Shown one piece after another: positions 1-34,451 of a DNA stretch of 39,308 bases (its first letter is position 1; each line of letters opens with the position of its first letter). This DNA comes from an uncultured Alphaproteobacteria bacterium. GTDB taxonomy: Bacteria > Pseudomonadota > Alphaproteobacteria > HIMB59 > GCA-002718135. The notes under the pieces were generated by a model. The model ran no database searches. It was given only the letters and a program-made list of their open reading frames with translations, and was not told where the DNA came from. The DNA lies in assembly GCA_902602885.1 (NCBI GenBank), contig CACKSM010000008.1, positions 1 to 39,308 of the forward strand, given 5' to 3'. A program made the position numbers and the translations under genes.

Positions 1-283
1 TAATTTCAGTTCTCATTTGTGTTCTTAGTTTAGCATCGAGATTTGATAATGGTTCATCAAACAAAAAAGCATCAGGCCTCCTTACAATTGCTCTTCCCAT
101 TGCTACTCTCTGTCTTTGACCTCCAGAAAGCTGAGAAGGTTTTCTTTTTCGAAGTTCTTCTAAACCCAAAATTTGTACAGCCTCTCTAACTCTAGTTTCA
201 ATTTCCTCTTTGTCTTCCTTTGCTATTTTAAGACTGAATCCTAAATTTTCTTCTACAGTCATGTGAGGATACAAAGCATAATT
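1..283 (-). pseudogene. MalK/UgpC-type ABC ATPase, middle fragment
   Basis: Read on the - strand, this piece starts in the Q-loop region ([16 protein letters not shown]) and continues through the ABC signature [14 protein letters not shown], Walker B (DAFLFDEP) and the D-loop [10 protein letters not shown], then runs off the left edge. These are hallmarks of the carbohydrate-importer (CUT1) ATPase family, which powers MalFG-type permeases from the cytoplasmic side. The Walker A half expected upstream is absent: just before the Asn of NYALYPHM the sequence switches to an unrelated reading, with an in-frame stop at about 284-286. It is therefore broken at its 5' side. The + strand immediately beyond carries the C-terminal part of the same kind of protein, so this looks like one inverted gene or a chimeric join, not two intact genes. 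The family call is secure; whether the break is biological is not. Confidence 0.8.
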
Positions 284-289
284 TTAAAA
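282..289. other. Inversion junction with 8-bp palindrome
   Basis: The self-complementary TTTTAAAA sits exactly where - strand ATPase coding sequence gives way to + strand coding sequence of the same family. The - strand homology extends to about 283-285 and the + strand homology begins at about 283. A few bases of shared T/A microhomology at a strand switch are typical of fold-back rearrangements and of multiple-displacement-amplification chimeras. The evidence is the abrupt loss of homology on both sides; no flanking repeat is visible. Confidence 0.6.
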
Positions 290-714
290 AACCAGCGACT
301 AAATTTGTTGCAACATTTATTGGTTCACCATCAATGAATATGATTGAAGCTAAAATTACTAATATTTCAGGGGAACTTTATATGGAAACTAATGATGGTA
401 TTTCTGTATTAGTTCCAAAACATAAAATAAATTCTTTAGCTGAAGGAAAAAGAATTTCTTTTGGTTTTAGAGCAGAAGATATCGTCCCACTAAAATTTGG
501 TCAGAAACCAAAAAATTCATGGAGTATTAAATCTAAGGTTAATCTTGCTGAACCGCTTGGAACAGAAACTTTGATTTTTACTAATTTAGGTAATACAGAA
601 GTTGTAAGCAGAATGTTTACACCCGAATTAGTAAATTCTAATGACGATTTAGAATTTGCATTAAATCTAGATAGAACTTATTTGTTTGATGGAGATACTG
701 GTTTGGCAATATGA
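283..714 (+). pseudogene. MalK/UgpC-type ABC ATPase, C-terminal fragment
   Basis: The reading frame is open from about 283 and begins [19 protein letters not shown]. That is the characteristic segment following the nucleotide-binding domain in MalK/UgpC/MsmK proteins, and the OB-fold (TOBE) regulatory domain follows it. The frame ends with the family-typical DGDTGLAI. An ATG at 334 could start a 126-residue product, but this would be only a TOBE domain without ATPase activity, so initiation there is probably not meaningful. The piece overlaps the next gene by 4 bases (ATGA), as in an intact operon, so this right-hand part is likely in its native context. The break lies to its left. An intact version would be the natural partner for the MalFG-type permeases further right, which have no ATPase of their own in the window. 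Confidence 0.75.
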
Positions 715-1367
715 CAAGTTCTGCAGAAATTTCTGATAGATTAGCAAAATGTTTCAGTAGTGTAATACATGATGTAATGAGAGATGATGGATTTAAAAAT
801 TTTGTTTTAAATCCTAGAATCAAACCAAATAAAGAAAAACATAAAATCGCAGGCCAGATTTTTACAATAGAAGGAGAGTCAAATAATAGTTTTTCTCATC
901 ATGAAACTTTATTAGCTTGGACAGGTCTTTTATCAAAAGCACCAACAGATAAAGTTCTAATATGTCAACCAAATGATAATAATATCGCTTTAATGGGTGA
1001 ATTAAGTGCCGAAACATTACAAAAGAAAAAAATCAGAGGTTATATTGCTGATGGTGGTTGTAGAGACTTAGAATTTATTAATAAAATTGATTTTCCTGTT
1101 TGGTCAAAATTTTATACCCCAAAAGATGTTGTGGCTTACTGGAAGCCAACTAAATTTGAACAAACAATAAAAATTGATGAAGTTGAAATCCATAATGGTG
1201 ATTATGTAATGGCAGATATTGATGGTATTGTTATTATTCCCCAAGAAAAAGTAATAGATATTTTGAAAAAATCAGAAAAATTAATTAATACTGAAAGCCA
1301 AGTTAGAAAAGCGATAAGAGAAGGAATGGACCCACAAGAAGCATATATTAAGTATAGCGTTTTTTAA
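711..1367 (+). CDS. RraA-family protein (aldolase/decarboxylase-like)
   Basis: This 218-residue protein belongs to the RraA/HMG-CHA aldolase fold. The conserved GELSAE segment and, about 15 residues later, GYIADGGCRDL match the family's active-site region, in which the Arg-Asp pair holds divalent metal and a 2-oxoacid substrate. Family members include 4-hydroxy-4-methyl-2-oxoglutarate aldolase, oxaloacetate decarboxylase and several sugar-acid lyases; some (E. coli RraA) instead bind RNase E. The neighbourhood of sugar-acid enzymes favours a metabolic role, such as retro-aldol cleavage of a 2-keto acid. The ATG overlaps the preceding stop by 4 bases, implying translational coupling. The stop shares TTAA with the convergent MaoC gene. 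The exact substrate cannot be read from the sequence. Confidence 0.8.
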   Translation: MTSSAEISDRLAKCFSSVIHDVMRDDGFKNFVLNPRIKPNKEKHKIAGQIFTIEGESNNSFSHHETLLAWTGLLSKAPTDKVLICQPNDNNIALMGELSAETLQKKKIRGYIADGGCRDLEFINKIDFPVWSKFYTPKDVVAYWKPTKFEQTIKIDEVEIHNGDYVMADIDGIVIIPQEKVIDILKKSEKLINTESQVRKAIREGMDPQEAYIKYSVF

Positions 1368-1813
1368 GTATTTTTTCTTTCAACCAAAAGTATATGTTCA
1401 GAATAACAAACACATTTGTCGTTTTGATTTAAAATTTCACACGCTTCATTAACTTGACCAAATTGTGGTCTTTTAGGATCGTCTTTTTTTTCTTTAATTG
1501 TTACTTTTGTGTGAATAGTGTCTCCAATAAAAACTGGATTAGGAAAACGCAGTCTTTCAAATCCATAGGTGAATGCTCTTTTATTTACAACTGAAGCTGT
1601 GAGAGCTATCCCAATGGAAAAAGTACAACTGAATTGTGCAACTCTTTGTCCAAAAGGACCTTTCTTTGCAAATTCTGCATCAACATGATGCGGATAAAAA
1701 TCTCCAGAATGCATTGCATGAGTGACTATATCTGTTTCAGTAATTGTCCTACCAGCAGTAATTCTTTCAGCTCCTATTTCATAGTCTTCGAAGAATTGTT
1801 CTATTTCTACCAT
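1364..1813 (-). CDS. MaoC-like (R)-specific enoyl-CoA hydratase
   Basis: A 149-residue single hot-dog-domain protein. The hydratase signature is intact: ITETDIVTHA is followed by SGDFYPHHVD, which places the catalytic Asp at residue 38 and His at residue 43. A later GERLRF-like stretch ([16 protein letters not shown]) is typical of the family. It should add water reversibly to a trans-2-enoyl-CoA or related acyl-CoA in the cytoplasm. It is divergent from a second MaoC-type gene only 48 bases away, and both lie beside a CaiB CoA-transferase gene, pointing to a short CoA-thioester pathway. Its stop codon overlaps that of the RraA-family gene. Confidence 0.85.
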   Translation of the reverse strand: MVEIEQFFEDYEIGAERITAGRTITETDIVTHAMHSGDFYPHHVDAEFAKKGPFGQRVAQFSCTFSIGIALTASVVNKRAFTYGFERLRFPNPVFIGDTIHTKVTIKEKKDDPKRPQFGQVNEACEILNQNDKCVCYSEHILLVERKNT

Positions 1814-1861: not shown

Positions 1862-2425
1862 ATGAATAAAGATAATAAGTTTGAAAATACTGTTGGAATA
1901 GAGTCAACTTATCCAAAAGATATGCCAAAAGATCACGGTGAAATTCCAGTATGGAATTCTGAAAATTGGTTTTATGAAGATGTAATTGTTGGTCATAAAA
2001 TTAGATCTCTACGTCGAACAATATCTGAAGGAGAGGCCATGCAATTTAATTGTATGGTTTTAGATATGCATCCTTATGTAGGCGACGAACATTTTGCAAA
2101 AAATGAAGGAATGTTCCAAAAAAGATTAGTAGCAGGAGCTATGGTTTTTTCTTATGGTTTAGGTTTAGTTGCAACTAACTGTGTAAACTCTTTTAGTTAT
2201 GGATATGACCGTTTAAGATTCATCAAACCAGTTTTTATTGGAGATACAATTTATACAATTAGAACTAATATGGAAAAAAAACCTAAATATGAAAAAATGG
2301 GTTTAGTTAGAACTAGTTACGAAGTTTTTAAAGATGAAGGCGAAATTGTTCTATATTGTGAGCATCTACATTCAGTTTTATATAAAAAACCAGAAGACTT
2401 TAAAGATAAATACGAAAAAAAATGA
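1862..2425 (+). CDS. MaoC-like protein lacking the canonical His
   Basis: This 187-residue hot-dog-fold protein is related to the neighbouring MaoC protein; both share the [16 protein letters not shown] and PVFIGDTI segments. It has an N-terminal extension of about 35 residues. In the active-site loop the paralogue reads GDFYPHHVD while this one reads LDMHPYVGD. The Asp is kept but the position of the catalytic His is a Val, with the nearest His shifted three residues earlier. It may be a hydratase with altered chemistry, a non-catalytic partner forming a heterodimer, or a thioesterase-like binder. It is the first gene of the operon and overlaps the next gene by 4 bases (ATGA). Confidence 0.75.
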
Positions 2426-3555
2426 TTAACTTAAAAGGAATGACCTGGGATCATTCTAGAGGTTTTGACCCAATGGTTGCTACATCTAAAAAATTTAAGG
2501 AAATTCATAATAATAAAGTTTCAATTGAATGGGATAAAAGACCGTTACAAGCATTTGCAGATAGACCTATAGAAGACATGACTGATGATTATGATTTAAT
2601 AGTAATAGACTATCCTCATGTTGGTGAAGTAGCTCACAAAGGTCTTTTACAAAACTTAAATCTCAGTGAATATCAATCTCAGTTAAACGATTTAAAAAAG
2701 CAATCAGTTGGAAAATCACATGAGAGTTATTTTATAGATAATAAACAATGGGCTCTTGCCATAGATGCTGCCTCACAGACCGCCTGTTACAGAGAAGATT
2801 TAGTTAGAATACTTCCGTCCAAATGGGATGATCTTCTTTCATTAGCAAAAGAGAGAAAAGTTCTTTGGCCTTTAAAACCAGTTCATGCAATAAGTAGTTT
2901 TTATAGTATTTATAACAACATTACTGAAGAATTAATCCCAGAAGAAAAAAATTTTATTAATACAGATGCTGGCGTTAAAACTCTTACAATGATGAAAGCT
3001 GTATCTAAAGAAATAATCAATGATTGTTTAAGTATGGATCCAATTCAAACTGCTGAACTCATGACTGAGACTAATGATTTTTATTATTGCCCATACATTT
3101 ATGGATTTTCAAATTACTCTAGAAATAATTATAGAAAAAATATTTTGAAATACATTGATGTTTTAGATTTGTCAGGCAAAGGTCCATCAGGAACACATTT
3201 AGGTGGTACTGGTATAGCAGTATCAAATGTAAGTAAGAATAAAGATCTAGCAATTGAATATGCATTTTGGATAGCAGGTGCTGAATGTCAAAAGTCACTT
3301 TTTTATCAAAGTGGTGGACAGCCAGGAAATTCTGAAGCTTGGAAGGATGAAAAGATAAATCTAGAAACAAACGATTTTTTTAAAGCAACTCGTAAAACTC
3401 TTGATTTGGCATGGGTAAGACCAAGGCATAATGGTTATATGGAATTTCAGGACGAAAGTGGTGATCTCATTAATGAATATCTACAAACAGAAATTACTGC
3501 TGAAAGTGTTTGTGAAAAATTATCTGATATGTACAATAAGAGTTTCAAAGAATAA
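2422..3555 (+). CDS. Family 1 solute-binding-like protein without signal peptide
   Basis: The 377 residues have the architecture of family 1 ABC substrate-binding proteins. An early [14 protein letters not shown] segment corresponds to the usual region naming the target compartment. The C-terminal half has GGTGIAVS followed by [16 protein letters not shown], a very typical pattern for sugar-type binding proteins. There is no hydrophobic signal sequence: the protein starts [14 protein letters not shown], and the start is fixed by a 4-base ATGA overlap with the preceding gene. No permease or ATPase gene adjoins it; it sits between MaoC and CaiB genes. It may therefore be a cytoplasmic binding or chaperone-like protein that holds a metabolite or CoA-linked substrate. 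The fold assignment is good; the function is unknown. Confidence 0.7.
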
Positions 3556-3563
3556 ATTATTGT

Positions 3564-4712
3564 ATGACTAAACCATTAGAAGGATTAACTGTATTAGAAT
3601 TTAGCCAGTTTTTATCAGGACCATATGCAGGCTTAAGACTTGCTGATTTAGGTGCAAGAGTAATTAAAATTGAAAGACCAGAAGTTGGGGATCTTTGTAG
3701 AAACTTATATATCAGCGATACCGATCTTGAAGGTGATAGTACTTTATTTCATGCAATTAATAGAAATAAGGAAAGCTTTGCAGCAAATTTAAAAGATGCC
3801 AAAGACATAGAGTTAGTAAAAAAATTAATTGAGAAGGCAGATATAATTACACAAAATTTTAGACCAGGAGTAATAGAACGTATTGGTTTGGATTATAAAA
3901 ATGTAAAAAAAATAAATCCAAAAATAGTTTATGGAACTATTTCTGGTTACGGATCTGATGGACCTTGGAGTTCATTACCTGGACAAGATTTATTAGCGCA
4001 ATCTAGAACTGGTTTAGTTTGGTTAAATGGCAATGGAGGTGAAGCACCAACACCAATGGGTTTGGCAGTTGCTGACATGTTAGCAGGACATACACTAGTT
4101 GAAGGTATATTAGCAGCGGTTATCAAAAGATTTCGAACTGATAATGGATCTCATGTAGAAACAAGTTTAGTTGAGGCCTTATTAGATTTTCAATTTGAAG
4201 TTCTTACGACATATTTTAACGATGGAAACAGAAACCCGCAAAGAAGCTCTTATAATAATGCCCATGCATATCTATCTGCTCCATATGGAATTTATAAAAC
4301 TTCTAATGGATATATAGCAATAGCAATGACACCACTACCTCAACTTGGTGAATTGCTTGATTTAAATTCAATCAAAGGTTTGGATGATCAAAAAGAATGG
4401 TTCACAAAAAGAGATGAGATTAAAAAACAAATTGGTGATTGGATTGAAAAAGAAACAACAGAACATTGGTTGAGTATTCTTGAGCCAGCAGATATATGGT
4501 GTGCCAAAGTACTCGATTGGGAAACAATGGTTAAACACGAAGGATTTAAAATACTCGATATGGTTCAGAGAATAAAAAGAGATGATGGACTTGATATTGA
4601 AACACTTCGTTGCCCAATAAAAATTGATGGAGAGATCTTTAAATCAAGTAAGGCAGCTCCAAAAATTGGGAACGACAATAATAGTATTATGAAAGAATTT
4701 GGTATCTCATGA
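3564..4712 (+). CDS. CaiB/BaiF family III CoA-transferase
   Basis: A 382-residue family III CoA-transferase. It opens with PLEGLTVLEFSQFLSGPYAG, contains the NRNKESF motif near residue 67, and has the catalytic Asp at residue 142 in PGQDLLAQ. These enzymes move CoA between carboxylic acids through a mixed anhydride on that Asp. Length is close to the family norm of about 390-430. It is separated by 8 bases from the binding-protein-like gene and overlaps the next gene by 4 bases. With two MaoC proteins in the locus, a plausible role is activating a dicarboxylic or hydroxy acid to its CoA ester before (de)hydration. The acid itself cannot be named. Confidence 0.88.
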   Translation: MTKPLEGLTVLEFSQFLSGPYAGLRLADLGARVIKIERPEVGDLCRNLYISDTDLEGDSTLFHAINRNKESFAANLKDAKDIELVKKLIEKADIITQNFRPGVIERIGLDYKNVKKINPKIVYGTISGYGSDGPWSSLPGQDLLAQSRTGLVWLNGNGGEAPTPMGLAVADMLAGHTLVEGILAAVIKRFRTDNGSHVETSLVEALLDFQFEVLTTYFNDGNRNPQRSSYNNAHAYLSAPYGIYKTSNGYIAIAMTPLPQLGELLDLNSIKGLDDQKEWFTKRDEIKKQIGDWIEKETTEHWLSILEPADIWCAKVLDWETMVKHEGFKILDMVQRIKRDDGLDIETLRCPIKIDGEIFKSSKAAPKIGNDNNSIMKEFGIS

Positions 4713-5815
4713 AAATAAAAGATATAGAAATTCGTATGTGTCGACACAAAGAGCCTGTCATGAAAGATTCAGAAATGAGAGATGGAAAAAAATCAGATTT
4801 AGAATTCTTAGTTATTACATTTCACACTGATGAAGGTCTATCTAGCTCTACTTTTGGGTTTGCAGGTAGGGGCGCAGAAATGGCTGGTGAAATTGCAAAT
4901 TCAATTTTTAAACCTTTTTTTATTGGCAGAGACCCGCTTTATCGTGAGCAACATTGGCATGAATACAGAATCGCAGACAGATGGTGGAACCACGCACCTA
5001 TATATAGTTATGGACCATTTGATATTAATTGTTGGCTTCTCTCATCTATGCAAGCAGGCCAACCTCTTTATCAGTATTTAGGCGCTTATAGAGACAAGGT
5101 TCCAATTTATGGAAGTTCTTTAGTTTTAGATTCACCTGAGGCTTACGCAAAAGAAGCCTTGGAATATAAAAAGAGAGGTTTCAATGCTTATAAACTTCAT
5201 CCTCCTGGAAAATATGATTTTGATTTGGAAGCTCATAAAAAAACACGTGAAGCAGTTGGTGATGAATTTAAACTTATGAGTGATCCGGTTGCCCCTTATA
5301 CTTTTGAACAAGCTCTACGTTTTGGAAGAGAGTTAGAAAAATTAAATTATTATTGGTACGAGGAGCCTTTATTTGATGAAAATTTTCATAATCTAAGAGA
5401 ATTAACTAGAATATTAGATATTCCTATTATTGGAACAGAGGTTATAGCAAAACATCCTTACAGTGTTGCTGAATGTATCTCTACAAGGGTTGTAGATATG
5501 GTAAGAGCTGATGTTTCATGGAGTGGAGGTATTACGGCTACAATGAAAACAGCACATTTAGCAGAAAGTTTTGGTGTTCAGTGTGAAATTCATACAGCTA
5601 TTTATCATCCTTTAGAACTTGTTAATTTACATTGTTGTGCAGCTATAAAAAATTCTGAATTTTTTGAAGTATTGGTTCCTTATGAATATTTTAATTTTGG
5701 TTTAAAAGGTTCTATCAAAGTCGAAAACGGTTATGCTCATTTACCTTCTAAGCCAGGTCTTGGTATTGATTTAGATTGGGATTTTATAGATAATACAACT
5801 TTCAAAAAAATTTAA
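4709..5815 (+). CDS. Mandelate racemase-family (enolase superfamily) enzyme
   Basis: A 368-residue enolase-superfamily protein of the mandelate racemase subgroup. Predicted Mg2+ ligands are Asp192 (SDPVAP), Glu218 (WYEEP) and Glu244 (GTEV). The Asp268/His295 pair (RADVSWSGG and EIHTAIYH) is the general acid/base dyad that defines this subgroup. On the opposite face the usual KxK is KLH (Lys162, His164), seen in some acid-sugar dehydratases. It most likely abstracts the alpha-proton of a sugar acid to give a 2-keto-3-deoxy acid. It lies directly before L-fuconate dehydratase, so the operon holds two non-identical dehydratase-type enzymes. Substrate unassigned; racemase or epimerase activity is possible. 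Confidence 0.82.
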   Translation: MKIKDIEIRMCRHKEPVMKDSEMRDGKKSDLEFLVITFHTDEGLSSSTFGFAGRGAEMAGEIANSIFKPFFIGRDPLYREQHWHEYRIADRWWNHAPIYSYGPFDINCWLLSSMQAGQPLYQYLGAYRDKVPIYGSSLVLDSPEAYAKEALEYKKRGFNAYKLHPPGKYDFDLEAHKKTREAVGDEFKLMSDPVAPYTFEQALRFGRELEKLNYYWYEEPLFDENFHNLRELTRILDIPIIGTEVIAKHPYSVAECISTRVVDMVRADVSWSGGITATMKTAHLAESFGVQCEIHTAIYHPLELVNLHCCAAIKNSEFFEVLVPYEYFNFGLKGSIKVENGYAHLPSKPGLGIDLDWDFIDNTTFKKI

Positions 5816-5817
5816 TA

Positions 5818-7119
5818 ATGACAAAGATTACTAAATTTAGTGTTCAAGATGTAAGATTTCCAACTTCAAAAGATTTAACTGGATCTGATGCTATTCATAC
5901 AGATCCTGATTATTCAGCAACGTATGTGATGGCTTTTACTGATCAATCACAATTAAAAGGATATGGTATTGCCTTCACGATTGGTAAAGGAAATGACATT
6001 GTTGCTGAATGTATAAAACATTTTTTTCCAATTTTTGAAAATATGGACTTAAATGATTTAGAAAATAACATTGGTAAGCTCTGGTTTAAGTGTGTTGATC
6101 ATAGTCAACTACGTTGGTTAGGTCCTGAAAAAGGAGTTGTTCATATGGCTGTATCAGCAATCTTTAATTGTTTATGGGATTTAATTGCTAAGAAGCACAA
6201 AAAACCTTTGTGGCAGTTTGTTGTAGAAAGTGAGCCTGAAAAAATCGTTAGTTGGTTAACATTTAAATATATTGAGGATGTTTTAACTCCAGAGGAAGCA
6301 TTAGTGATTTTGTCAAACAATCAAAATGATAAACAAAAACGTATCAATAAAGTATTGCAAGAAGGATATCCATCTTACACAACTGCTGCAGGATGGCTTG
6401 GCTATTCAGATGAAAAAATAATTCAATTATGCAAAGAATATATGGCGAAAGGTTGGAAGCATTTTAAAATCAAAGTAGGTTTAGATCTAGATGCAGATGT
6501 AAAAAGACTTGAGTTAATTAGAAAAACAATTGGTCATGATTGCTTTATTATGGTTGATGCAAACCAACAATGGAGTGTAAAACAATCGATTAAACATATT
6601 AATGCATATAAAAAATTTAATTTGTTTTTTGTAGAAGAACCTACAAGTCCAGATGATGTAATGGGTTTTGCCAAAATAAAAAAAGAAGTTGGAAACGTAA
6701 GGCTTGCAACTGGAGAAGCTTGTGGAGGTCGTATCATGTTTAAACAATTTCTAGAATCTGGTGCAATGAACATTTGTCAAATTGATAGTTGTAGATTGGG
6801 AAGCATCAATGAAATAATAACTGTATTGTTAATGGCACATAAATTTAATGTTCCAGTTTTTCCTCACGCAGGCGGTGTTGGTCTTTGTGAGTATGTCCAA
6901 CACTTATGTATGATTGATTATATTTTAATTAATGGTTCTAAAAATGATAAAGTAGTAGAATATCAGGACAGTTTACATGAACACTTCATATATCCATGTA
7001 AAATTGAAAATGGAAATTATATGCCTCCACTTGATCATGGGTATTCTATTGAAATGAAAGAAAAGTCTGTTAATGATTTCTCTTTTCCTAACGGCGAGTA
7101 TTGGAAGAATAATATATGA
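5818..7119 (+). CDS. fucD: L-fuconate dehydratase
   Basis: This 433-residue enolase-superfamily protein carries the FucD-type N-terminus (VRFPTSKDL, GSDAIHTDPDYS) and the full catalytic set: Lys217 and Lys219 (KIKVG), metal ligands Asp247, Glu273 and Glu300, and Asp323 with His350 (FPHAGG). This spacing agrees to about one residue with the characterised Xanthomonas L-fuconate dehydratase. It converts L-fuconate to 2-keto-3-deoxy-L-fuconate in the cytoplasm. The next three genes encode the following steps of the non-phosphorylating fucose pathway, which strongly supports the call. Spacing is 2 bases from the gene before and a 4-base overlap with the gene after. Confidence 0.92.
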   Translation: MTKITKFSVQDVRFPTSKDLTGSDAIHTDPDYSATYVMAFTDQSQLKGYGIAFTIGKGNDIVAECIKHFFPIFENMDLNDLENNIGKLWFKCVDHSQLRWLGPEKGVVHMAVSAIFNCLWDLIAKKHKKPLWQFVVESEPEKIVSWLTFKYIEDVLTPEEALVILSNNQNDKQKRINKVLQEGYPSYTTAAGWLGYSDEKIIQLCKEYMAKGWKHFKIKVGLDLDADVKRLELIRKTIGHDCFIMVDANQQWSVKQSIKHINAYKKFNLFFVEEPTSPDDVMGFAKIKKEVGNVRLATGEACGGRIMFKQFLESGAMNICQIDSCRLGSINEIITVLLMAHKFNVPVFPHAGGVGLCEYVQHLCMIDYILINGSKNDKVVEYQDSLHEHFIYPCKIENGNYMPPLDHGYSIEMKEKSVNDFSFPNGEYWKNNI

Positions 7120-7853
7120 GACTAAAAGAAAAAAAAATAATTGTAACTGCAGCTGCACAAGGAATTGGTAGAGCAACTGCAATGATGTTTGCTAAAGAAG
7201 GTGCTTCTGTGATTGCTACAGATATTAACGAAGAAAAACTTAATGAATTAAACAAAGAAAATAATTTAATAAAAACTCAAAAATTAGATGCAACAAATAA
7301 AAAGGGAGTTGAAGAATTTTGTTCCAGTATTGATTCGGTTGATGTTCTTTTTCACGCAGTGGGTTTTGTTCATCATGGAACGTTATTGGAATGTGATGAT
7401 GAAGAATTTTATCGATCAGTAAATGTAAATGTATATTCAGCCTATCTTATGAGCTACAATTTAGTTCCTAAAATGTTAGAAAAAGGAAAAGGAAATATTA
7501 TAATAGTATCTTCTGCAGCTTCTAATGTAAAAGGTGTTGAAAATAGATTTATATATGGAGCAACTAAAGCAGCTTTAAATGGTTTTGTGAAAGCAGTTGC
7601 GGCTGACTATGTGAAAAAAGGAATTCGATGCAATGCAATACTTCCTGGAACTGTAGAAACACCTTCCTGGGAAGGAAGAGTAAACATGGCTGCTGATCCA
7701 AAGAAAGCTCGTGAAGACTTTATAGCGAGACAGGCAATGGGTAGATTGGCTCAACCAGAAGAAATTGCTTCACTTGCTACATATCTAGCGAGTGACGAAT
7801 CATCTTTTGTAACAGGAACCTTAAATTTAATTGATGGAGGATGGACTTTATAA
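7116..7853 (+). CDS. SDR, probable 2-keto-3-deoxy-L-fuconate dehydrogenase
   Basis: A 245-residue classical short-chain dehydrogenase with the nucleotide loop TAAAQGIG (11-18), an Asp at residue 36 favouring NAD+ over NADP+, and a catalytic Ser133/Tyr147/Lys151 set in SSAAS...YGATK. Arg144 precedes the Tyr. This arrangement is that of the DHRS6/BDH2-like group, which includes 2-keto-3-deoxy-L-fuconate 4-dehydrogenase. In this position, right after L-fuconate dehydratase and before an FAH-family hydrolase, it is expected to oxidise C4 to give 2,4-diketo-3-deoxy-L-fuconate. It overlaps the gene before by 4 bases and the next by 1 (TAATG). Confidence 0.87.
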   Translation: MRLKEKKIIVTAAAQGIGRATAMMFAKEGASVIATDINEEKLNELNKENNLIKTQKLDATNKKGVEEFCSSIDSVDVLFHAVGFVHHGTLLECDDEEFYRSVNVNVYSAYLMSYNLVPKMLEKGKGNIIIVSSAASNVKGVENRFIYGATKAALNGFVKAVAADYVKKGIRCNAILPGTVETPSWEGRVNMAADPKKAREDFIARQAMGRLAQPEEIASLATYLASDESSFVTGTLNLIDGGWTL

Positions 7854-8701
7854 TGAAAACTTTAAGATATAGAATTGGAAAAGAAGTGAAACCAGGGATT
7901 GTCGATACTCAAGGACAAGTTCGCGATGCTTCAACGTTGGTAAAAGATTGGGATAGAGAAAATGTAACTATTGATAAGCTTAATGAAGTGAAAAAAGCTG
8001 ATATTGGATCACTTCCTATTGTTCAAAGTTACGATAGTATTGCTCCTTGTGTCTGTAAAGAAAGTATTGGAAAGTTTATATGTATAGGATTAAATTACTC
8101 AGACCATGCTGAAGAAACTGGGATGAAAGTACCGCCTGAACCAATTATATTTGCAAAAGCAACAAGCGCTGTTATTGGTCCAAATGATGATGTAGAAATT
8201 CCTAAAAAATCTGTAAAGTCTGACTGGGAAGTAGAGCTTGGAGTAATTATTGGAAAAGAAGCAAAGTATATTTCAGAGAGTGAATCAGAATCTCATATAG
8301 CTGGTTACTGTGTTATTAATGATCTTAGTGAAAGAGAATTTCAGATAGAACACTCAGGCCAGTGGGTGAAAGGTAAGTCTTGTGATACTTTTGGACCAAT
8401 TGGTCCCTATTTGGTTACAACTGATGAAGTACCCGACCCACAAAATCTTAAAATGTGGTTAGAAGTTAATGGGAAAACAATGCAAAATGGCTCAACAAAT
8501 ACCATGGTTTATGGTGTAAATTTTCTAGTAAGTTATCTAAGCCAATTCATGTCATTGCAACCTGGTGACATTATTTCCACTGGTACACCTCCAGGAGTAG
8601 GCATGGGAATGAACCCACAGGTATTTTTAAAAGCTGGTGATGTAATGAAATTGGGAATTGAAGGTCTAGGAGAGCAAACTCAAAAAACTATTCAGGCGTA
8701 A
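7853..8701 (+). CDS. FAH-family 2,4-diketo-3-deoxy-L-fuconate hydrolase
   Basis: A fumarylacetoacetate-hydrolase-family protein of 282 residues. The ATG at 7853 within TAATG is preferred over an in-frame ATG at 7841 because it gives the family-like start MKTLRYRIG and the 1-base coupling common in this operon. Metal-binding acidic residues are seen at Glu126/Glu128 (DWEVELG) and Asp157 (NDLSER), followed by WVKGKSCDTFGP and the C-terminal GTPPGVG loop. In the L-fucose pathway this family splits 2,4-diketo-3-deoxy-L-fuconate into pyruvate and L-lactate. The preceding and following genes supply the matching reactions. The same family includes acylpyruvases, so the assignment depends partly on context. 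Confidence 0.87.
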   Translation: MKTLRYRIGKEVKPGIVDTQGQVRDASTLVKDWDRENVTIDKLNEVKKADIGSLPIVQSYDSIAPCVCKESIGKFICIGLNYSDHAEETGMKVPPEPIIFAKATSAVIGPNDDVEIPKKSVKSDWEVELGVIIGKEAKYISESESESHIAGYCVINDLSEREFQIEHSGQWVKGKSCDTFGPIGPYLVTTDEVPDPQNLKMWLEVNGKTMQNGSTNTMVYGVNFLVSYLSQFMSLQPGDIISTGTPPGVGMGMNPQVFLKAGDVMKLGIEGLGEQTQKTIQA

Positions 8702-9855
8702 TGTTTGGGAGTATTAATAACTGTCATAATGTAAAAGACTTTAGAAATTTAGCAAAAAAAAGGCTACCAAGTCCAATATTTCATTACATCGATGGTGCAG
8801 CAGATGATGAAATAACTTATAAAAGAAACACAGATGCTTACGAGCAATGTGATTTGATTCCAAATGTTTTAAGTGGCGTTGATAAAGTGGATATGTCAAC
8901 TACGGTTATGGGACAAAAGTTAGATATACCTTTGTATTGTGCACCTACTGCTCTTCAAAGGTTGTTCCATCATGAAGGTGAGATTGGAGTTGCAAAAGCT
9001 GCCGAAAAATTTGGCACAATGTTTGGAATATCTTCTTTAGGTACAGCAAGTATCGAGGAGATATCAAATTTAGTTAAAACACCAAAACTTTTTCAACTTT
9101 ATGTTCATAAAGATAAAGGATTAAACAAAGCCCTTATAGAAAGATGTAAAGAGTCAAATTTTGAAGCAATGGCAGTTACAGTTGATACGGCTGTTGGAGG
9201 AAATCGTGAAAGAGATTTATATACAGGTTTCACTATTCCAATGAAATTAAAACTCAATAGCGTTTTAAGTTTTATGCTCCATCCAAAGTGGGCAGTCGAT
9301 TATTTTACAAAACCTAAATGGGAATTAAGTAATCTAAAAGATCACATTAATGAAGGCACAACAGTAATGACAACAATAGGAGATTATTTCACAAAAATGC
9401 TTGATAATTCAATGAGTTGGAAAGATGTAGAAAATATTAATAAAGAGTGGGGTCGTCAATTTGCTATTAAAGGTGTTATGTCTGTAGACGATGCAAAAAA
9501 AGCTGTTGATGTAGGCGCCTCAGCTATAATGGTTTCAAATCATGGTGGTAGACAATTAGATGGTTCAAGATCACCATTTGATCAACTAGCTGAAATTGTT
9601 GATGCTGTTGGAGATAAGATAGATGTAATTTGTGAAGGAGGAATTAGAAGAGGTACTCATGTTTTAAAGGCACTGTCACTTGGTGCAAAAGCCTGTTCTG
9701 GTGGAAGAATGTATCTATACGCTTTGGCAGCAGGAGGTCAAAAAGGTGTTGAAAAAAGTTTATCTAATTTACGCAATGAAATTGAACGAGATATGAAATT
9801 AATGGGAGTTTCTAACGTAAAAGAACTCACAAGAAAAAATCTAAAATTCAGATAA
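8701..9855 (+). CDS. lldD: FMN-dependent L-lactate dehydrogenase
   Basis: A 384-residue FMN alpha-hydroxy acid dehydrogenase. It has the N-terminal FHYIDGAADDE motif (Tyr29), the QLYVHKD substrate/FMN segment and the catalytic SNHGGRQLDG with His281 and Arg284. A GGIRRG phosphate-binding loop lies near residue 320. The length fits LldD (about 380-396). It oxidises L-lactate to pyruvate, passing electrons to the membrane quinone pool. As last gene of the fuconate operon (1-base overlap with the hydrolase gene) it would recycle the lactate released by the previous step. Other L-2-hydroxy acids are possible substrates. Confidence 0.85.
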   Translation: MFGSINNCHNVKDFRNLAKKRLPSPIFHYIDGAADDEITYKRNTDAYEQCDLIPNVLSGVDKVDMSTTVMGQKLDIPLYCAPTALQRLFHHEGEIGVAKAAEKFGTMFGISSLGTASIEEISNLVKTPKLFQLYVHKDKGLNKALIERCKESNFEAMAVTVDTAVGGNRERDLYTGFTIPMKLKLNSVLSFMLHPKWAVDYFTKPKWELSNLKDHINEGTTVMTTIGDYFTKMLDNSMSWKDVENINKEWGRQFAIKGVMSVDDAKKAVDVGASAIMVSNHGGRQLDGSRSPFDQLAEIVDAVGDKIDVICEGGIRRGTHVLKALSLGAKACSGGRMYLYALAAGGQKGVEKSLSNLRNEIERDMKLMGVSNVKELTRKNLKFR

Positions 9856-23094: not shown

Positions 23095-24327
23095 GTGATT
23101 GATTTAAAAAATATTGAAGAAATAATTATTAAAGAAAAAAAAATTTTAAGAAATAAATCAAAGAATTTTAGAGAAAATTTTTCAAAAATTGAAAAATATA
23201 TTTTGAGTGAAATTATAAAAATAGAAGACTTAAAAAAAAATAATAAACAAATTATTCCGGAGATTAAATTCCAAGATTTAAATTCAAATACAGAAGAATT
23301 TGAAAGAGAAGTTAAACAAAAAGGTTGTGTCATTATTAGAGATGTTTTTGAAGATAGTATGATCCATAAAATGAACAAAGATTTAGAAAATTATATTGAA
23401 GAAAATAATTATTATGAAGATCAAAAGAAAAAAGCTGACTTGGATAAATATTTCAGTGAATTAAAATCAGGTAAACCGCAGATATTTGGATTGTATTGGT
23501 CAAAAACACAAGTGGAAATAAGACAATCTGCTGAAATGGATGTTGTAAAAAAATGGTTAAATAATCTTTGGATCAATAAAAATAAAGATGAAGTAATTTT
23601 TGATCCTAATCAAGAACTTGTTTATGCTGATCGTATTCGAAGAAGAGAACCCGGAGACTCAACTTTAGGATTGTCACCTCACTGCGATGCTGGCTCAGTT
23701 GAAAGATGGATAGATAAAGGGTATCAATCAGTTTACGAAAAAGTTTTTGCTGACAAATTTCTAGACTATGATCCTTTTAATGCTTCTTTTAGAAATAAAA
23801 CTCAAGAAATAGAATCTCCTGCTGTTAGTCATGTCTTTAGAACTTTTCAAGGTTGGGTTGCTTTAACTCAACAAGGTCCTGGAGATGGTACACTTCAATT
23901 AATCCCAATAGCAAAGTCCATGGCTTTTATTTTAACGAGAGCCTTAATGGAGGATGTAAATGAAAATGAATTATGTGGTTCTAAACCAGCAAGGGCGTTG
24001 TCTGTTAATTCGACATATCACTCTCTTTTATTAAGGGGATTAGTTTCAATTCCAAAAATGAATGCAGGAGATACAGTGTGGTGGCATCCAGATGTAGTTC
24101 ATGCAGTGGAAGATCATCATTCTGGAACAGGTTATTCAAATGTGGTTTATGTTGGATCCACACCTTACTGTGAAAAAAATTTAGCTTATGCTCAAAAGCA
24201 ATCCAAAAAATTTATCGAGGGAAAAAGCCCACCCGATTTTGCAGCTGAGGATTATGAAGTTACTTATAAAAACAGAGCTACAATTGACGACTTAACTCCT
24301 TTAGGAAAAAAACAACTAGCTTTATAA
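23095..24327 (+). CDS. DUF1479/YbiU-type non-heme iron oxygenase-like protein
   Basis: A 410-residue protein resembling the DUF1479 family (E. coli YbiU), whose function is not established. A likely iron site is His196-x-Asp198 (SPHCDAGSVERW), with a distal His336 in WWHPDVVHAVED, giving the 2-His-1-carboxylate layout of Fe(II)/2-oxoglutarate enzymes. The first 50 residues are Lys/Ile/Glu-rich and helical. The start is GTG at 23095, giving MIDLKNIEE; there is no good Shine-Dalgarno site. It lies 7 bases after the desaturase-type gene and is convergent, with a 1-base gap, to the glyoxalase gene. Confidence 0.8.
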   Translation: MIDLKNIEEIIIKEKKILRNKSKNFRENFSKIEKYILSEIIKIEDLKKNNKQIIPEIKFQDLNSNTEEFEREVKQKGCVIIRDVFEDSMIHKMNKDLENYIEENNYYEDQKKKADLDKYFSELKSGKPQIFGLYWSKTQVEIRQSAEMDVVKKWLNNLWINKNKDEVIFDPNQELVYADRIRRREPGDSTLGLSPHCDAGSVERWIDKGYQSVYEKVFADKFLDYDPFNASFRNKTQEIESPAVSHVFRTFQGWVALTQQGPGDGTLQLIPIAKSMAFILTRALMEDVNENELCGSKPARALSVNSTYHSLLLRGLVSIPKMNAGDTVWWHPDVVHAVEDHHSGTGYSNVVYVGSTPYCEKNLAYAQKQSKKFIEGKSPPDFAAEDYEVTYKNRATIDDLTPLGKKQLAL

Positions 24328-28190: not shown

Positions 28191-29732
28191 ATGAAAAGGC
28201 CAAATATTTTATTAATAACTTCCGATCAACAACATCATGATACTATTGGAAAATTTAATTCAAAAATACAAACACCGTATTTAGATAAGCTTTGTGACGA
28301 GGGAATGAATTTTACAAGAGCTTATTGTCCATCACCAGTTTGCACGCCATCAAGAGCAAGTATTATTACTGGACAATATCCGTCTTCTCATGGAGCTTGG
28401 ACAATTGGAGTTAAATTAGATGAAGAAGTAGAAACTATTGGAGAACTTTTATACAAAAATGGATATTCAACTGGGTTAATAGGTAAAGCACATTTCCAGC
28501 CATTAACTTCAGTTCCAGGTCAGGAATCTATAGAAGGACAACCAACTTTAAGAGATTTGGAATTTTGGAAAAATTTTAAAGGACCTTGGTATGGCTTTGA
28601 ACATATTGAGTTAGCACGTAATCATGCTGATGAAAGTCATGTAGGTCAACATTATGCAATTTGGATGGAACAAAACGGTCTTAGTGATTGGAAAGAATAT
28701 TTTCAACCAGTGCCTGGTGAAACTTCTAAATATGCTCCTCCTATTGCTCGCGAATATGACTACTGGGCGAGACCGGATAGGGTTTGGAAGTTAGACGAAA
28801 AACATCACTACACAAACTGGACAGCTGAAAGATCAATTGAATTTTTAGATCAACAAAAAGATGACAAGCCATTTTTTCTTTGGACAAGTTTTCAAGATCC
28901 ACACCCACCATACGTATTAAGTGAACCATGGGCATCAATGTATAATCCAGAAGATATGTCACCTGGAACTTTAAAAGAAGGTGAGCACGAATTAAATCCA
29001 CCTCATTTTGGAAAAACACAAACGAAAAATCCTGATTTCGAAAATTGGCATTCACCATTTAACGCTCATGGATGTATGAGTCATCTGTATCCTTTGGAAG
29101 AATTAAAAAAAGACATGGCAATTTATTATGGCATGGTTAGTTTTATGGATAAGAATATTGGAAAAATAATTAATAAGTTAGATCAAATGGGTGAACTTGA
29201 TAATACCATAATTATTTTTACTACTGATCATGGTCACTTTATAGGACAGCATGGTCTAATTGCTAAAGGACCTTTTCACTATGAAGACATGCTCCGTTTA
29301 CCATTTATTGTTAGATGGCCAGATAAAGTTCCTCAAAATTCATCATCTTCATCTTTATTAAGTTTAGTTGATCTTGCCCCAACATTTTTAAAAGTCGCGG
29401 GCATTGATATACCAACTCAAATGCAAGGAGTGGATCAAACAGAAGTATTTTATGGTAATAAGGAAAGTATCCGATCACATATATTTGTTGAAAATAGACA
29501 TAATCCAAGAATGCCTCATTTAAAAACTTACATAAATGATAATTATAAAATTTCTATTTACCGAGAAGCTAATTACGGTGAACTTTTTGATTTAGAAAAT
29601 GATCCAAACGAATATAATAATTTATGGGACAATACGAATGCACAAACATTAAAAAAAGATTTATTATTTAAGTTTGCGCAAGCCACATTAAAAGATGAAA
29701 CATCTAAAATGAAAAGAGTTTCAGGTGCTTAA
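28191..29732 (+). CDS. Cytoplasmic sulfatase 1 (Cys-type, CTPSR)
   Basis: A 513-residue type I sulfatase. Cys51 in CTPSR (51-55) is the residue converted to formylglycine. Metal ligands include Asp12/Gln13 (SDQQ) and Asp346/His347 (TTDHGHF), and Lys99/His101 lie in GKAHF. The first metal-binding strand starts at residue 5, leaving no room for a signal peptide, so it should act in the cytoplasm. It hydrolyses a sulfate ester; the related phosphonate monoester hydrolases share these motifs. It starts 2 bases after the permease stop. Confidence 0.88.
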   Translation: MKRPNILLITSDQQHHDTIGKFNSKIQTPYLDKLCDEGMNFTRAYCPSPVCTPSRASIITGQYPSSHGAWTIGVKLDEEVETIGELLYKNGYSTGLIGKAHFQPLTSVPGQESIEGQPTLRDLEFWKNFKGPWYGFEHIELARNHADESHVGQHYAIWMEQNGLSDWKEYFQPVPGETSKYAPPIAREYDYWARPDRVWKLDEKHHYTNWTAERSIEFLDQQKDDKPFFLWTSFQDPHPPYVLSEPWASMYNPEDMSPGTLKEGEHELNPPHFGKTQTKNPDFENWHSPFNAHGCMSHLYPLEELKKDMAIYYGMVSFMDKNIGKIINKLDQMGELDNTIIIFTTDHGHFIGQHGLIAKGPFHYEDMLRLPFIVRWPDKVPQNSSSSSLLSLVDLAPTFLKVAGIDIPTQMQGVDQTEVFYGNKESIRSHIFVENRHNPRMPHLKTYINDNYKISIYREANYGELFDLENDPNEYNNLWDNTNAQTLKKDLLFKFAQATLKDETSKMKRVSGA

Positions 29733-29748
29733 TTAAGAAAGGATAAAG

Positions 29749-31248
29749 ATGAGAATTTTATACGTAGACATAGACTCTTTAAGACCTGATCACTTAGGAT
29801 GTTATGGTTATCATAGAAATACGTCTCCTACGATTGATTCAATAGCAAAAGAAGGAGTCAAGTTTACAAATTTTTATTCAACTGACACACCGTGCCTACC
29901 TAGTAGAACTGCTTTGTTTGGAGGTAATTTTGGTTTCAAAACTGGAGTTGTTAATCATGGCGGTGAATTCTCTGATATTGCTCCTAGAAAAAATATTTGG
30001 AATAGAGAATTTAAAGGCGGCTTAAGAGGAGAATATGCTTTTACATCTCTTGGAAAAGTTCTTCGAGATGCAGGATATTATACAGCAAGTATCAGTCCAT
30101 TCCCTGAAAGACATACAGCTTATCAAGTTTGGTTTGGTTTTACCGAAACGTATGACACTGGAAAAGGTGGTTTAGAAAATGCTGATGAAGTCTACCCTGT
30201 CATAAAAAAGTGGTTAGAAAATAATGGAGAAAAAGAAAATTGGTTCTTACATGTAAATATGTGGGATCCTCATACTCCGTATGATACACCTGAAGACTTT
30301 GGAAATCCTTTTAAAGATGATCCTATTGAAGAATGGGTGACAGAAGAATTAATTAAAAAACAAAGGAATAGTTTTGGACCGCATAGCGCTAGAGAAGTTC
30401 CAGGATTTGATGAAGATCTTGGAGGAAAGTATACAATGGGAGTGGGCGAAATTAAAAATACTTCTGATGCTAAAGAACAAATTGATGCTTATGACACTGG
30501 AATTAAATACGCAGATTTTTATTTAAATAAAGTTTTTGAAGATTTAAAAAAAATGAATCTTTGGGATGATACTGCAATAATTATTTCAGCAGACCACGGA
30601 GAAAATCAAGGTGAGTTAAATGTATGGGGAGATCACCAAACAGCTGATCATATAACTAATAGAGTTCCATTAATAATCAGATGGCCGGGGATAACAGATA
30701 CAAATAAAGGAAGTACTATAGAAAATAAATTTTATAATTTAGATTTAACTTCAACTATTTCTCAAATTACTTCATCTTCTCAACCTGACAGATGGGATGG
30801 TATTAATTTCACTGAAAATTTAACAAATAGTAAATCATCAAATGGAAGAGATTATTTAGTTATTAGTCATGGTGCTTGGAGTTGTCAAAGATCTGTAAGA
30901 TGGGATAATTGGTTACTAATAAGAACGTACGATACTGGTTTAAAAGATTTTCCAAAATATATGCTGTTTGATATTGAAAAAGATCCGCATGAGTTGAATA
31001 ACCTAGCAAATCAGCATAAAGATCTCGTAGCTCATGGTATGTTTTTAATCGATGAGTGGATTGAAGAAAATATGTATGAGGCTGATAGAGGAGATCCACT
31101 TCAAGGTGTAATTAGAGAAGGTGGTCCTCATCATGCAAATATTTATTCAAAAGTCTGGAATATATATGTTGAGCGTCTTGAAAAAACAGATAGAAAAAAA
31201 CACGCTGATAATCTTAGGAAATATAAAGGAAAACCTTTTAGTAAATAA
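29749..31248 (+). CDS. Cytoplasmic sulfatase 2 (Cys-type, CLPSR)
   Basis: A 499-residue sulfatase-family protein with Cys49 in CLPSR (49-53) and Asp282/His283 (SADHGE). The N-terminal metal strand reads DIDSLRPDHLGCYGY from residue 7, with Ser where other sulfatases have a second Asp or Gln. The GKxH motif seen in sulfatase 1 is not apparent. The subgroup therefore differs and could hydrolyse another ester type. No signal peptide. AAAGGA at 29738-29743 is a fair ribosome site. Confidence 0.85.
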   Translation: MRILYVDIDSLRPDHLGCYGYHRNTSPTIDSIAKEGVKFTNFYSTDTPCLPSRTALFGGNFGFKTGVVNHGGEFSDIAPRKNIWNREFKGGLRGEYAFTSLGKVLRDAGYYTASISPFPERHTAYQVWFGFTETYDTGKGGLENADEVYPVIKKWLENNGEKENWFLHVNMWDPHTPYDTPEDFGNPFKDDPIEEWVTEELIKKQRNSFGPHSAREVPGFDEDLGGKYTMGVGEIKNTSDAKEQIDAYDTGIKYADFYLNKVFEDLKKMNLWDDTAIIISADHGENQGELNVWGDHQTADHITNRVPLIIRWPGITDTNKGSTIENKFYNLDLTSTISQITSSSQPDRWDGINFTENLTNSKSSNGRDYLVISHGAWSCQRSVRWDNWLLIRTYDTGLKDFPKYMLFDIEKDPHELNNLANQHKDLVAHGMFLIDEWIEENMYEADRGDPLQGVIREGGPHHANIYSKVWNIYVERLEKTDRKKHADNLRKYKGKPFSK

Positions 31249-31260
31249 ATCTAAATAATA

Positions 31261-32628
31261 ATGAATATTAAATCTAAACCAAATATTATTGTATTTTTTA
31301 CTGATCAACAACGCTGGGATACTTCTGGTTTACATGGCAATCCATTATCCTTGATGGATAACTTCGATCATTATGCAGTTGAAGGTACACATCTTTATAA
31401 CTCATTTACATGCCAACCAGTTTGTGGGCCTGCAAGAGCTTCATTACAATCAGGAATGTATGCAACAAAGACTGGATGTTTTAAAAATAGAATACCTTTA
31501 AAAAAAAATATTAAAACTCTTGCAAAACATTTATCAAAAGAAGGATATGCTACTGGATATATTGGAAAGTGGCACCTCGGCTCATCTGAACCGGTTAAAA
31601 AAGAGGATAGAGGTGGTTATGATTATTGGTTGGGATCAAATCTTTTAGAATTTACTTCCGATGCTTATGAAACATATGTTTATGATGGACAAAATAAAAA
31701 AGTATTTCTTCCAGGATATAGAGTTGATGCAATAACTGATGCAGCTATAAATTTTATAAAACTAAATCAAAAAAAACCATTTTTTCTTTTCGTTTCTCTT
31801 ATTGAGCCACATCACCAAAACAATACAGATGATTATCCACCACCTATTGGATACAGAGAAAAATATACAGGTAAGTGGTCTCCTCCAGATCTTTCATCTC
31901 TGGTTGGATCTTCTCCTCGACATTTAGGAGGTTATTATGGAATGGTGAAGAGAATAGATGAAGCTTATGGAAGAATGATTGATGTAATTAAAAGCTTAAA
32001 ATTATTTGATGATAGTGCAATTATTTTTACATCAGATCATGGAAATAATTTTAAAACACGAAATAGAGAATATAAACGTTCATGTCATGAAAGTTCAATA
32101 CGGGTTCCTACTTCTTTAATTGGAAATGTTTTCCAACAAGGTGGACGTATAAAAGAACTAACCAATATATTAGATATTCATGCAACAATCTTAGATTTGG
32201 CAAAAGTCAAAAATACCTCTCATTGTGATGGTAGATCAGTATTGCCCTTGGTAAATAAAACATCAAAAAAATGGGAAAATGAAATTTTTGTTCAAATAAG
32301 TGAGAGTCAATTAGCTAGAAGTTTAAGAACTGAAAAATGGAAATATTGTATAGCTGATCAAGACTCTAATGGGAGTGATAAACCTTCATCTAATCAATAC
32401 ACAGAGACAAATTTATACGATCTTGATGCTGATCCGTATGAATTAAATAACTTAATTGGTATTAGTACTTATGATGAAATAGTAACCTCCTTAAGAAAAA
32501 AGATTAAAAGTAAAATTAAAAAAGTTGAAAATATAACAACTAAAATTACAAAAGCTAAAAATGTAAATAATCCTGGTCAAATGGGATTAAATCCTGATTC
32601 TTTTCATAGATTAAAGAAAAAACTTTAA
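31261..32628 (+). CDS. Cytoplasmic sulfatase 3 (Cys-type, CGPAR)
   Basis: A 455-residue sulfatase with Cys55 in CGPAR (55-59), the N-terminal FTDQQRWD metal motif, GKWH at 102-105 and Asp259/His260 (TSDHGNN). This set resembles arylsulfatase and sugar-sulfatase groups. The final 40 residues are Lys-rich and probably helical or disordered. There is no signal peptide. It starts 12 bases after sulfatase 2, with no visible Shine-Dalgarno. Confidence 0.86.
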   Translation: MNIKSKPNIIVFFTDQQRWDTSGLHGNPLSLMDNFDHYAVEGTHLYNSFTCQPVCGPARASLQSGMYATKTGCFKNRIPLKKNIKTLAKHLSKEGYATGYIGKWHLGSSEPVKKEDRGGYDYWLGSNLLEFTSDAYETYVYDGQNKKVFLPGYRVDAITDAAINFIKLNQKKPFFLFVSLIEPHHQNNTDDYPPPIGYREKYTGKWSPPDLSSLVGSSPRHLGGYYGMVKRIDEAYGRMIDVIKSLKLFDDSAIIFTSDHGNNFKTRNREYKRSCHESSIRVPTSLIGNVFQQGGRIKELTNILDIHATILDLAKVKNTSHCDGRSVLPLVNKTSKKWENEIFVQISESQLARSLRTEKWKYCIADQDSNGSDKPSSNQYTETNLYDLDADPYELNNLIGISTYDEIVTSLRKKIKSKIKKVENITTKITKAKNVNNPGQMGLNPDSFHRLKKKL

Positions 32629-32659
32629 TAATTATTTTTTTCGTATTAGTCTGGTATTT

Positions 32660-34171
32660 ATGAAAACAGTTTTTCTTTTATTTGATTCATTAAATAAAAG
32701 AATGTTAAATTCTTATGGTGGTAAATATATTGAAACACCAAATTTTAACAGATTAGCAAAAAAATCAGTTCAATTTAATAATCATTATATTGGTAGTATG
32801 CCCTGTATGCCGGCAAGACGTGATATGCATTCAGGTCGATTAAGTTTTCTTCACCGTGCATGGGGTCCATTAGAACCATTTGATAATTCATTTCCAGAAA
32901 TCTTAAGACTAAATAATACGTATACTCATCTTGTGACTGATCATTATCATTACTTTGAAGATGGTGGCGCAACCTATCATAATAGATTTAACTCATGGGA
33001 TTTTATTAGAGGACAAGAGAGTGACCCGTGGAAAGCCATGGTTCAACCACCACTTGAAAAATTAAGAGAAAAATATCATCAATCACAATTAAATTTAACT
33101 GATAGGGAAACAGGTTATTATCATTACGCAATCAATAGTGAATTTATTAAAGAAGAAAAAGATTTTCCTTCAGTTAAATGTTTTGAATCTGGTTTAGACT
33201 TTATAAATATTAATAAAGATGCTGATAATTGGTTTCTTCAACTAGAAACTTTTGATCCTCACGAACCTTTTTTTGCGCCAGAGCGATTTAGAGAAAAACT
33301 AAAAACAAATTATACTGGCCCAAGATTAGATTGGCCTCAGTATGATAGAGTGAAAGAAACAGATGATGAGGTTGCAGAGTTAAAAGCCAATTACATTGCT
33401 TTAGTTGGTCTATGTGATTATTTACTTGGTACGGTTTTAGATTATTTTGATGAAAATAATTTATGGAATGATACTGCATTGATTTTAACTACAGATCATG
33501 GTTTCATGCTCGGAGAACATGATTGGTGGGCTAAAAACAGAATGCCTTTGTATAATGAAATTGCAAATATACCTTTTTATTTTTATCACCCGGAATACAA
33601 ACAATATTCTGGCGAGCAAAGAAATGTTGTAACTCAAAATATTGATTTGATGCCAACATTCATGACAATGCATGGTCACAATCTTCCTAAAGAGGTTAAA
33701 GGTAAATCTATATTAAACTTTCTAGATAAAGACAGTGAAAATGAGCATTTTGCTTTGTATGGATATTGGGGCGGGGGAATAAATATATCCGATGGAAATT
33801 ATACATATTTTCATTTTCCAGAAAATTTTGATCAATACGATAGAAGTAGATTTCAATATACATTGATGCCAACCAATATGAGGCAATTTTTTTCACACGA
33901 AGAGTTGCAAACTGCTACAATGCATGAGCCATTTAACTTTACTAAAAATATTCCAGTAATGAAAGTTAATAGAATTCTTAGAAAATCGGATCCACATAAA
34001 TCATTAGAAGATACTAAATGTGCTCTTTATAATTTGAAGGAAGATCCTGGCCAATTAAACCCTATTAATGATGAAGATTTGATAAACAAATATAAAAATC
34101 TTATGCTGAATGAAATTAAAACATATGATCCTCCAAAGGAATTATTAAAAAATTATTTTAAAGAAAACTAA
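32660..34171 (+). CDS. Cytoplasmic sulfatase 4 (Cys-type, CMPAR)
   Basis: A 503-residue sulfatase-family protein with Cys49 in CMPAR (49-53) and Asp279/His280 (TTDHGFMLGEH). The N-terminal strand is LLFDSLNKRMLNSYGG, so like sulfatase 2 it has Asp-Ser in place of Asp-Asp or Asp-Gln, and GKxH is replaced by a TDHYHYFEDGG segment near residue 94. It appears to form a subgroup distinct from sulfatases 1, 3 and 5. There is no signal peptide. Its stop directly precedes the ATG of the next small gene. Confidence 0.85.
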   Translation: MKTVFLLFDSLNKRMLNSYGGKYIETPNFNRLAKKSVQFNNHYIGSMPCMPARRDMHSGRLSFLHRAWGPLEPFDNSFPEILRLNNTYTHLVTDHYHYFEDGGATYHNRFNSWDFIRGQESDPWKAMVQPPLEKLREKYHQSQLNLTDRETGYYHYAINSEFIKEEKDFPSVKCFESGLDFININKDADNWFLQLETFDPHEPFFAPERFREKLKTNYTGPRLDWPQYDRVKETDDEVAELKANYIALVGLCDYLLGTVLDYFDENNLWNDTALILTTDHGFMLGEHDWWAKNRMPLYNEIANIPFYFYHPEYKQYSGEQRNVVTQNIDLMPTFMTMHGHNLPKEVKGKSILNFLDKDSENEHFALYGYWGGGINISDGNYTYFHFPENFDQYDRSRFQYTLMPTNMRQFFSHEELQTATMHEPFNFTKNIPVMKVNRILRKSDPHKSLEDTKCALYNLKEDPGQLNPINDEDLINKYKNLMLNEIKTYDPPKELLKNYFKEN

Positions 34172-34450: not shown

Positions 34451-34451
34451 A

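Follow-up and report, generated by a model that had tools for sequence, protein, structure and literature searches.

A gene near the start of the analysed stretch of DNA (the window; 39,308 nt, which form the start of contig CACKSM010000008.1 of an uncultured alphaproteobacterium) was found to encode a protein with the fold of ABC-type sugar receptors that carries no export signal. The protein, for which the name SBPC is coined here, represents a real, widespread and misannotated family. An earlier note on this DNA proposed that the gene product is a cytoplasmic protein with a ligand-binding fold that is tied to a CoA-transferase. This proposal finds strong support in the absence of signals throughout the family and in its linkage to CaiB genes. 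That SBPC is a dedicated cytoplasmic partner of CaiB, acting alongside a hydratase in sugar-acid catabolism, is a plausible reading, for and against which we see about equal weight.

The SBPC gene and its operon

The SBPC gene (2422–3555, plus strand) is a complete open reading frame for a signal-less solute-binding-fold protein of 377 amino acids. Its ATG overlaps the stop codon of a MaoC-like gene (1862–2425) in the sequence ATGA, and the CaiB gene starts 8 bases 3' of it; the fixing of the start by this overlap and the nature of both neighbours were as the earlier note had described them. An upstream start inside the MaoC gene was rejected, since the frame is open for just four codons above the ATG before an in-frame stop is reached, with close stops also present in relatives. 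The family 1 binding-protein pattern previously read from the sequence was confirmed by a match to the Pfam family PF13416 (SBP_bac_8; E 8e-9, 36.1 bits against a cut-off of 27), which was also obtained for all 11 aligned SBPC members, and by the predicted structure. An AlphaFold2 model built from the 11-sequence alignment (pLDDT 85.1, pTM 0.87) corresponded over the whole chain to CUT1-type sugar-binding proteins in a fold search (rmsd 2.6–2.7 over 362–367 residues), the matches including MalE3 (6dtq, Z 36.7), TMBP (1eu8, Z 36.6) and SmoF (7ofy, Z 36.5), at only 15–16% sequence identity. Since the fold match covers the chain from residue 1 onwards, the point at which exported proteins start in their mature form, there is no room for a signal peptide, in agreement with its earlier predicted absence. 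The open frame above the ATG is short, residues 1–35 contain no hydrophobic core, and neither the export signal nor the lipobox of ABC receptors was found in SBPC. A clear signal peptide was sought in 81 sequences by means of a hydrophobicity test and was found in none; the test misplaced the starts of some true ABC receptors and was used only for the absence of a signal in SBPC.

Upstream of SBPC, the window contains genes for an RraA-like aldolase/decarboxylase family protein (711–1367, plus strand; PF03737, E 4e-27) and a MaoC hydratase with a GDxxPHH catalytic-type motif (1364–1813, minus strand; PF01575, E 2e-24; PDB 4ffu, E 8e-56), followed by the overlapping MaoC-like gene (plus strand; PF01575, E 1e-12). 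The latter is conserved beside SBPC and CaiB; the motif His of its product is apparently replaced (LDMHPYVGD), and it may pair with the first MaoC protein. Downstream, a full-length CaiB/BaiF class III CoA-transferase is encoded (3564–4712, plus strand; PF02515, E 1e-98), whose D171, the Asp at the catalytic position, is invariant in six aligned sequences. The genes that follow, all on the plus strand, specify an enolase-superfamily sugar-acid dehydratase-like protein (4709–5815; PF13378, E 2.5e-49), an L-fuconate dehydratase (5818–7119; PDB 1yey, an L-fuconate dehydratase, E 1e-136; 4a35, E 7e-146), an SDR assigned by position (7116–7853), an FAH-family hydrolase of the 2,4-diketo-3-deoxy-6-deoxysugar-acid type (7841–8701; NCBIfam NF053535, E 1.6e-113, below the equivalog cut-off) and an FMN-dependent L-lactate dehydrogenase-like protein (8701–9855; NCBIfam NF008398, E 4e-94, below the cut-off). 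The oxidative L-fucose route ends in pyruvate and L-lactate. The last four of these proteins make up the set expected for this route, so that the operon is predicted to encode the oxidative L-fucose pathway. Part of the AEGEAN169 clade, 'Ca. Indicimonas', is reported to carry a fucose operon of the oxidative route (PMC11366302). The operon described here has the same four functions in common with it, together with a sugar ABC transporter in relatives. The genes for the RraA-like protein, the two MaoC proteins, SBPC, CaiB and the second enolase-superfamily protein are extra here and go unmentioned in those parts of that report that are drawn on.

The statement of the earlier note that no transporter is present did not hold. 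The window opens with two pieces of a MalK/UgpC-type ABC ATPase gene. The first (1–298, minus strand; PF00005, E 1.5e-13; in opposite orientation to L002 by blastn) covers about residues 78–177 and matches the ATPase of a relative at 97%, while the second (283–714, plus strand; PF17912, E 7e-10) comprises the C-terminal part of the same ATPase (OB_MalK/TOBE) from residue 222 to the end. The pieces are inverted with respect to each other, have 16 bases in common at their junction and are likely an amplification chimera of the kind met in single-cell genomes. In intact relatives (L002, L013, L014, L018 and others), a complete CUT1 ABC transporter is located directly upstream, the gene order being exported binding protein, two permeases, ATPase, RraA-like protein, MaoC, MaoC, SBPC and CaiB. 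The transporter thus seems absent from the window because the contig ends inside its operon; some related clusters show none. The upstream binding protein of the relatives, which begins MMLRLFLSLILAVSFFGSFSAKAE, carries a signal peptide, and since the transporter therefore has a signal-bearing receptor of its own, SBPC is not linked to the cognate permeases and ATPase.

Elsewhere in the window, five sulfatase genes are located within 28191–36874 (at 28191, 29749, 31261 and 32660 on the plus strand and at 35369 on the minus strand), flanked by sugar ABC transporters. Their products start at the catalytic domain, seemingly without signal peptides, which suggests that imported sulfated sugars may be desulfated in the cytoplasm. 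A full-length gene for a Gig2-like, dioxygenase-like protein (23095–24327; PF07350, E 1e-121) adjoins genes for a PhyH-type dioxygenase and a desaturase-like protein.

Distribution of SBPC and composition of its gene clusters

Homologues of SBPC were gathered from genome contigs, plasmids and whole genomes. After removal of sequences that were more than 80% identical, 62 signal-less sequences (29–98% identical to the SBPC of the window) were retained, originating from Alphaproteobacteria, Betaproteobacteria (Variovorax, Roseateles), Verrucomicrobiota, Bacteroidota (Persicobacter, Rufibacter) and Actinomycetota (Streptomyces). In databases, members of the family are labelled 'extracellular solute-binding protein' or 'carbohydrate ABC transporter substrate-binding protein'. 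The CaiB–SBPC gene pair is also present in Sinorhizobium meliloti; no paper describing it was found among the open-licence PMC literature, and no SBPC relatives were found in viral contigs. In L027 (single-cell assembly AG-892-A10), SBPC is frameshifted by a one-base deletion in a T run (6420–6480), which may reflect a sequencing error or a recent loss.

A CaiB gene was located less than 200 bp away on the same strand for 48 of the 62 homologues and within 8 kb for six further ones (54/62). At these CaiB-linked loci, a MaoC or crotonase hydratase gene was detected within 10 kb in 53 of 54 cases, the exception being L063, which was examined within its flank only. The idea that signal-less homologues always sit next to CaiB and MaoC genes failed for the remaining eight homologues, all of which were devoid of both CaiB and a MaoC/crotonase hydratase in the scanned flank (0/8). 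Seven of the CaiB-free members form one clade (support 0.995), and the eighth branches apart; six of the corresponding genomes contained only generic CaiB matches (29–41% identity) and two had none at E 1e-40. Several loci of the CaiB-free clade (which comprises L088, L089, L090, L120, L131, L136 and L137) are accompanied by a gene for an enolase-superfamily, SDR or FAH-type protein or by ABC genes of the dipeptide type. Within one alphaproteobacterial order, SBPC was detected in 15 of 244 genomes. A CaiB at least 46% identical to that of the window was present in 10 genomes of this set, all 10 of them with SBPC, and the one further CaiB match was generic (37%). Shared ancestry inflates the linkage counts, yet the spread across phyla does not fit chance.

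SBPC is independent of any one transporter type. Clusters lacking ABC genes in the examined flank were found at seven CaiB-linked loci. On two Bacteroidota plasmids (Persicobacter and Rufibacter), each cluster comprises two CaiB genes, two genes for signal-less binding proteins and a gene for a RhaT-type symporter, with no ABC genes in the examined flank. The second of these binding proteins represents a distinct signal-less type, termed SBPCb (L064:17445–18674, L073:15550–16770, L071:5432–6604, L112:15775–16929 and L113:15983–17164), which sits beside or near a second CaiB gene or a Gfo/Idh gene. SBPCb is nearer to transporter receptors than to SBPC, and this resemblance, together with its lack of a signal, suggests a second, independent capture.

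The hydratase fold differs by cluster type, with MaoC in the fucose-type clusters and the non-homologous crotonase in a second type. The latter (sugar unassigned; L070, L072, L074, L076, L085, L115 and L132) includes genes for Gfo/Idh, a sugar isomerase-like protein, an aldose epimerase, an SDR, CaiB, SBPC, a crotonase and an FAH-type hydrolase, not all of which occur at all loci, and its ABC transporters vary. Distance correlations with SBPC (Mantel) amounted to r 0.71 for CaiB, 0.69 for MaoC1, 0.80 for MaoC2, 0.80 for Gfo/Idh and 0.37 for the ABC ATPase, values that set apart the ABC ATPase only. Their use as proof of contact between SBPC and CaiB was rejected, because Gfo/Idh and MaoC2 correlate with SBPC as well as CaiB does or better. 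The composition of the clusters argues for a function of SBPC in metabolism, not in transport.

Conserved residues and proposed function

About 20 SBPC residues are identical in 62 of 62 sequences. The invariant positions comprise W9, R13, W37, L42, F45, D58, D63, P65, G68, Y103, D115, A117, I208, P224, Y232, G261, G262, G264, Q290, G299, Q300, R333 and P334, some of which fall in columns of the sugar pocket. The pocket was compared with that of an alpha-glycoside-binding protein, whose ligand-site mutants were taken from PDB titles (D118A, W287A, R356A). In a profile alignment, R333 corresponds to Arg356, A117 to Asp118 and T263 to Trp287, so that the site would be kept but rebuilt around family-specific residues. 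SBPC thus has the whole fold, the pocket Arg (R333) and a Gly-Gly loop in common with CUT1 ABC sugar-binding proteins (PF13416/PF01547). It differs from them in being signal-less in all members found, in the exchange of two canonical ligand residues and in its linkage to CaiB and a hydratase instead of permeases. The invariance of these residues across clusters for different sugars suggests either an active site or one feature common to the ligands, which might be an open-chain end or an acid group.

For SBPC as a partner of CaiB, we infer physical contact between the two proteins, a ligand and an order of reactions as follows. The SBPC clamp would bind a sugar-derived acid, e.g. an aldonate, which in the operon of the window could be L-fuconate or a compound derived from it, and would hand this acid to the CoA-transferase or hold it there. 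CaiB would transfer CoA to the carboxylate of the acid via its catalytic Asp, after which the hydratase (MaoC or crotonase) would dehydrate or hydrate the thioester. SBPC would thereby supply a recognition of polyhydroxy acids that CaiB alone may lack. As the ligand, the earlier note had proposed an organic acid or the corresponding CoA ester, which would be handled for the transferase. A constant hydratase partner with two unrelated folds points to a shared CoA-ester step, and the simplest common denominator of the clusters would be the CoA activation of a sugar-derived acid, followed by the loss or addition of water. Judged by its sequence, the CaiB protein is a class III CoA-transferase like the formyl-CoA, succinate-hydroxymethylglutarate and benzylsuccinate CoA-transferases, with the catalytic-position Asp kept; to our knowledge, no described member of this class has a binding-protein-fold partner gene. 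Against this reading, CaiB shares the clusters with several other genes, of which Gfo/Idh follows SBPC more closely than CaiB does. In the operon of the window, moreover, a route from L-fuconate that needs no CoA is already encoded, which counts against the CoA step; the CoA branch may thus serve another, perhaps modified, 6-deoxysugar.

The best rival, although on balance unlikely, is that SBPC is itself an enzyme whose clamp converts a sugar acid, sugar lactone or keto-sugar into a product on which CaiB and the hydratase then work. It gains its rank from the CaiB-free members, which keep the invariant residues, so that the ligand of SBPC may not depend on CaiB. About 20 invariant residues at 29–98% identity are more than one would usually see in a binding protein that serves several sugars, and the replacement of D118 and W287 by A117 and T263 points in the same direction. 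Enzymes derived from solute-binding proteins exist (cyclohexadienyl dehydratase and MqnA) and provide a precedent for a clamp in a metabolic role; they stem from other branches of these proteins. SBPC lacks a recognisable catalytic motif, however, and the fold-search matches listed were binding proteins or fusions with one, with no known enzyme among them. A function as a cytoplasmic sensor of a pathway sugar or acid, which would modulate an IclR regulator or an enzyme allosterically, is improbable: an IclR gene is found within 10 kb at 30 of the 54 CaiB-linked loci, sometimes adjoining SBPC, but CaiB and the hydratase are far more constant, and close spacing or translational coupling links SBPC to CaiB or MaoC, not to IclR.

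Very little speaks for an ABC-transporter receptor with a lost or hidden export signal or a misplaced start. Its sequence family and fold are typical of such receptors and a CUT1 transporter adjoins, but in the clade of the window in-frame stops lie few codons upstream, the 81 sequences are without a clear signal, the adjoining transporter owns a signal-bearing receptor and SBPC is kept in clusters without ABC genes. Least credible of all is that SBPC is the degenerating remnant of a binding-protein duplication that the operon carries along, for which the frameshift in L027, maybe a sequencing error, could be cited, against purifying selection in the clade of the window (median dN/dS 0.095, compared with 0.044 for CaiB), residues invariant across phyla and conserved linkage.

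If SBPC is a partner of CaiB, a wider and more doubtful proposal can be made, namely a two-component CoA-transferase system in which a receptor clamp, captured twice (SBPC and SBPCb), would select sugar acids in the cytoplasm and present them for activation with CoA and so open a CoA-thioester catabolism of sugars. Contrary to its database labels, the evidence places SBPC neither outside the cell nor in the service of a transporter. If it serves a CoA-transferase, a fold that ranks among the commonest in bacteria would have found a new use in metabolism, and this would point to a CoA-dependent branch of deoxysugar catabolism, so far uncharted, in organisms from rhizobia to open-ocean bacteria.
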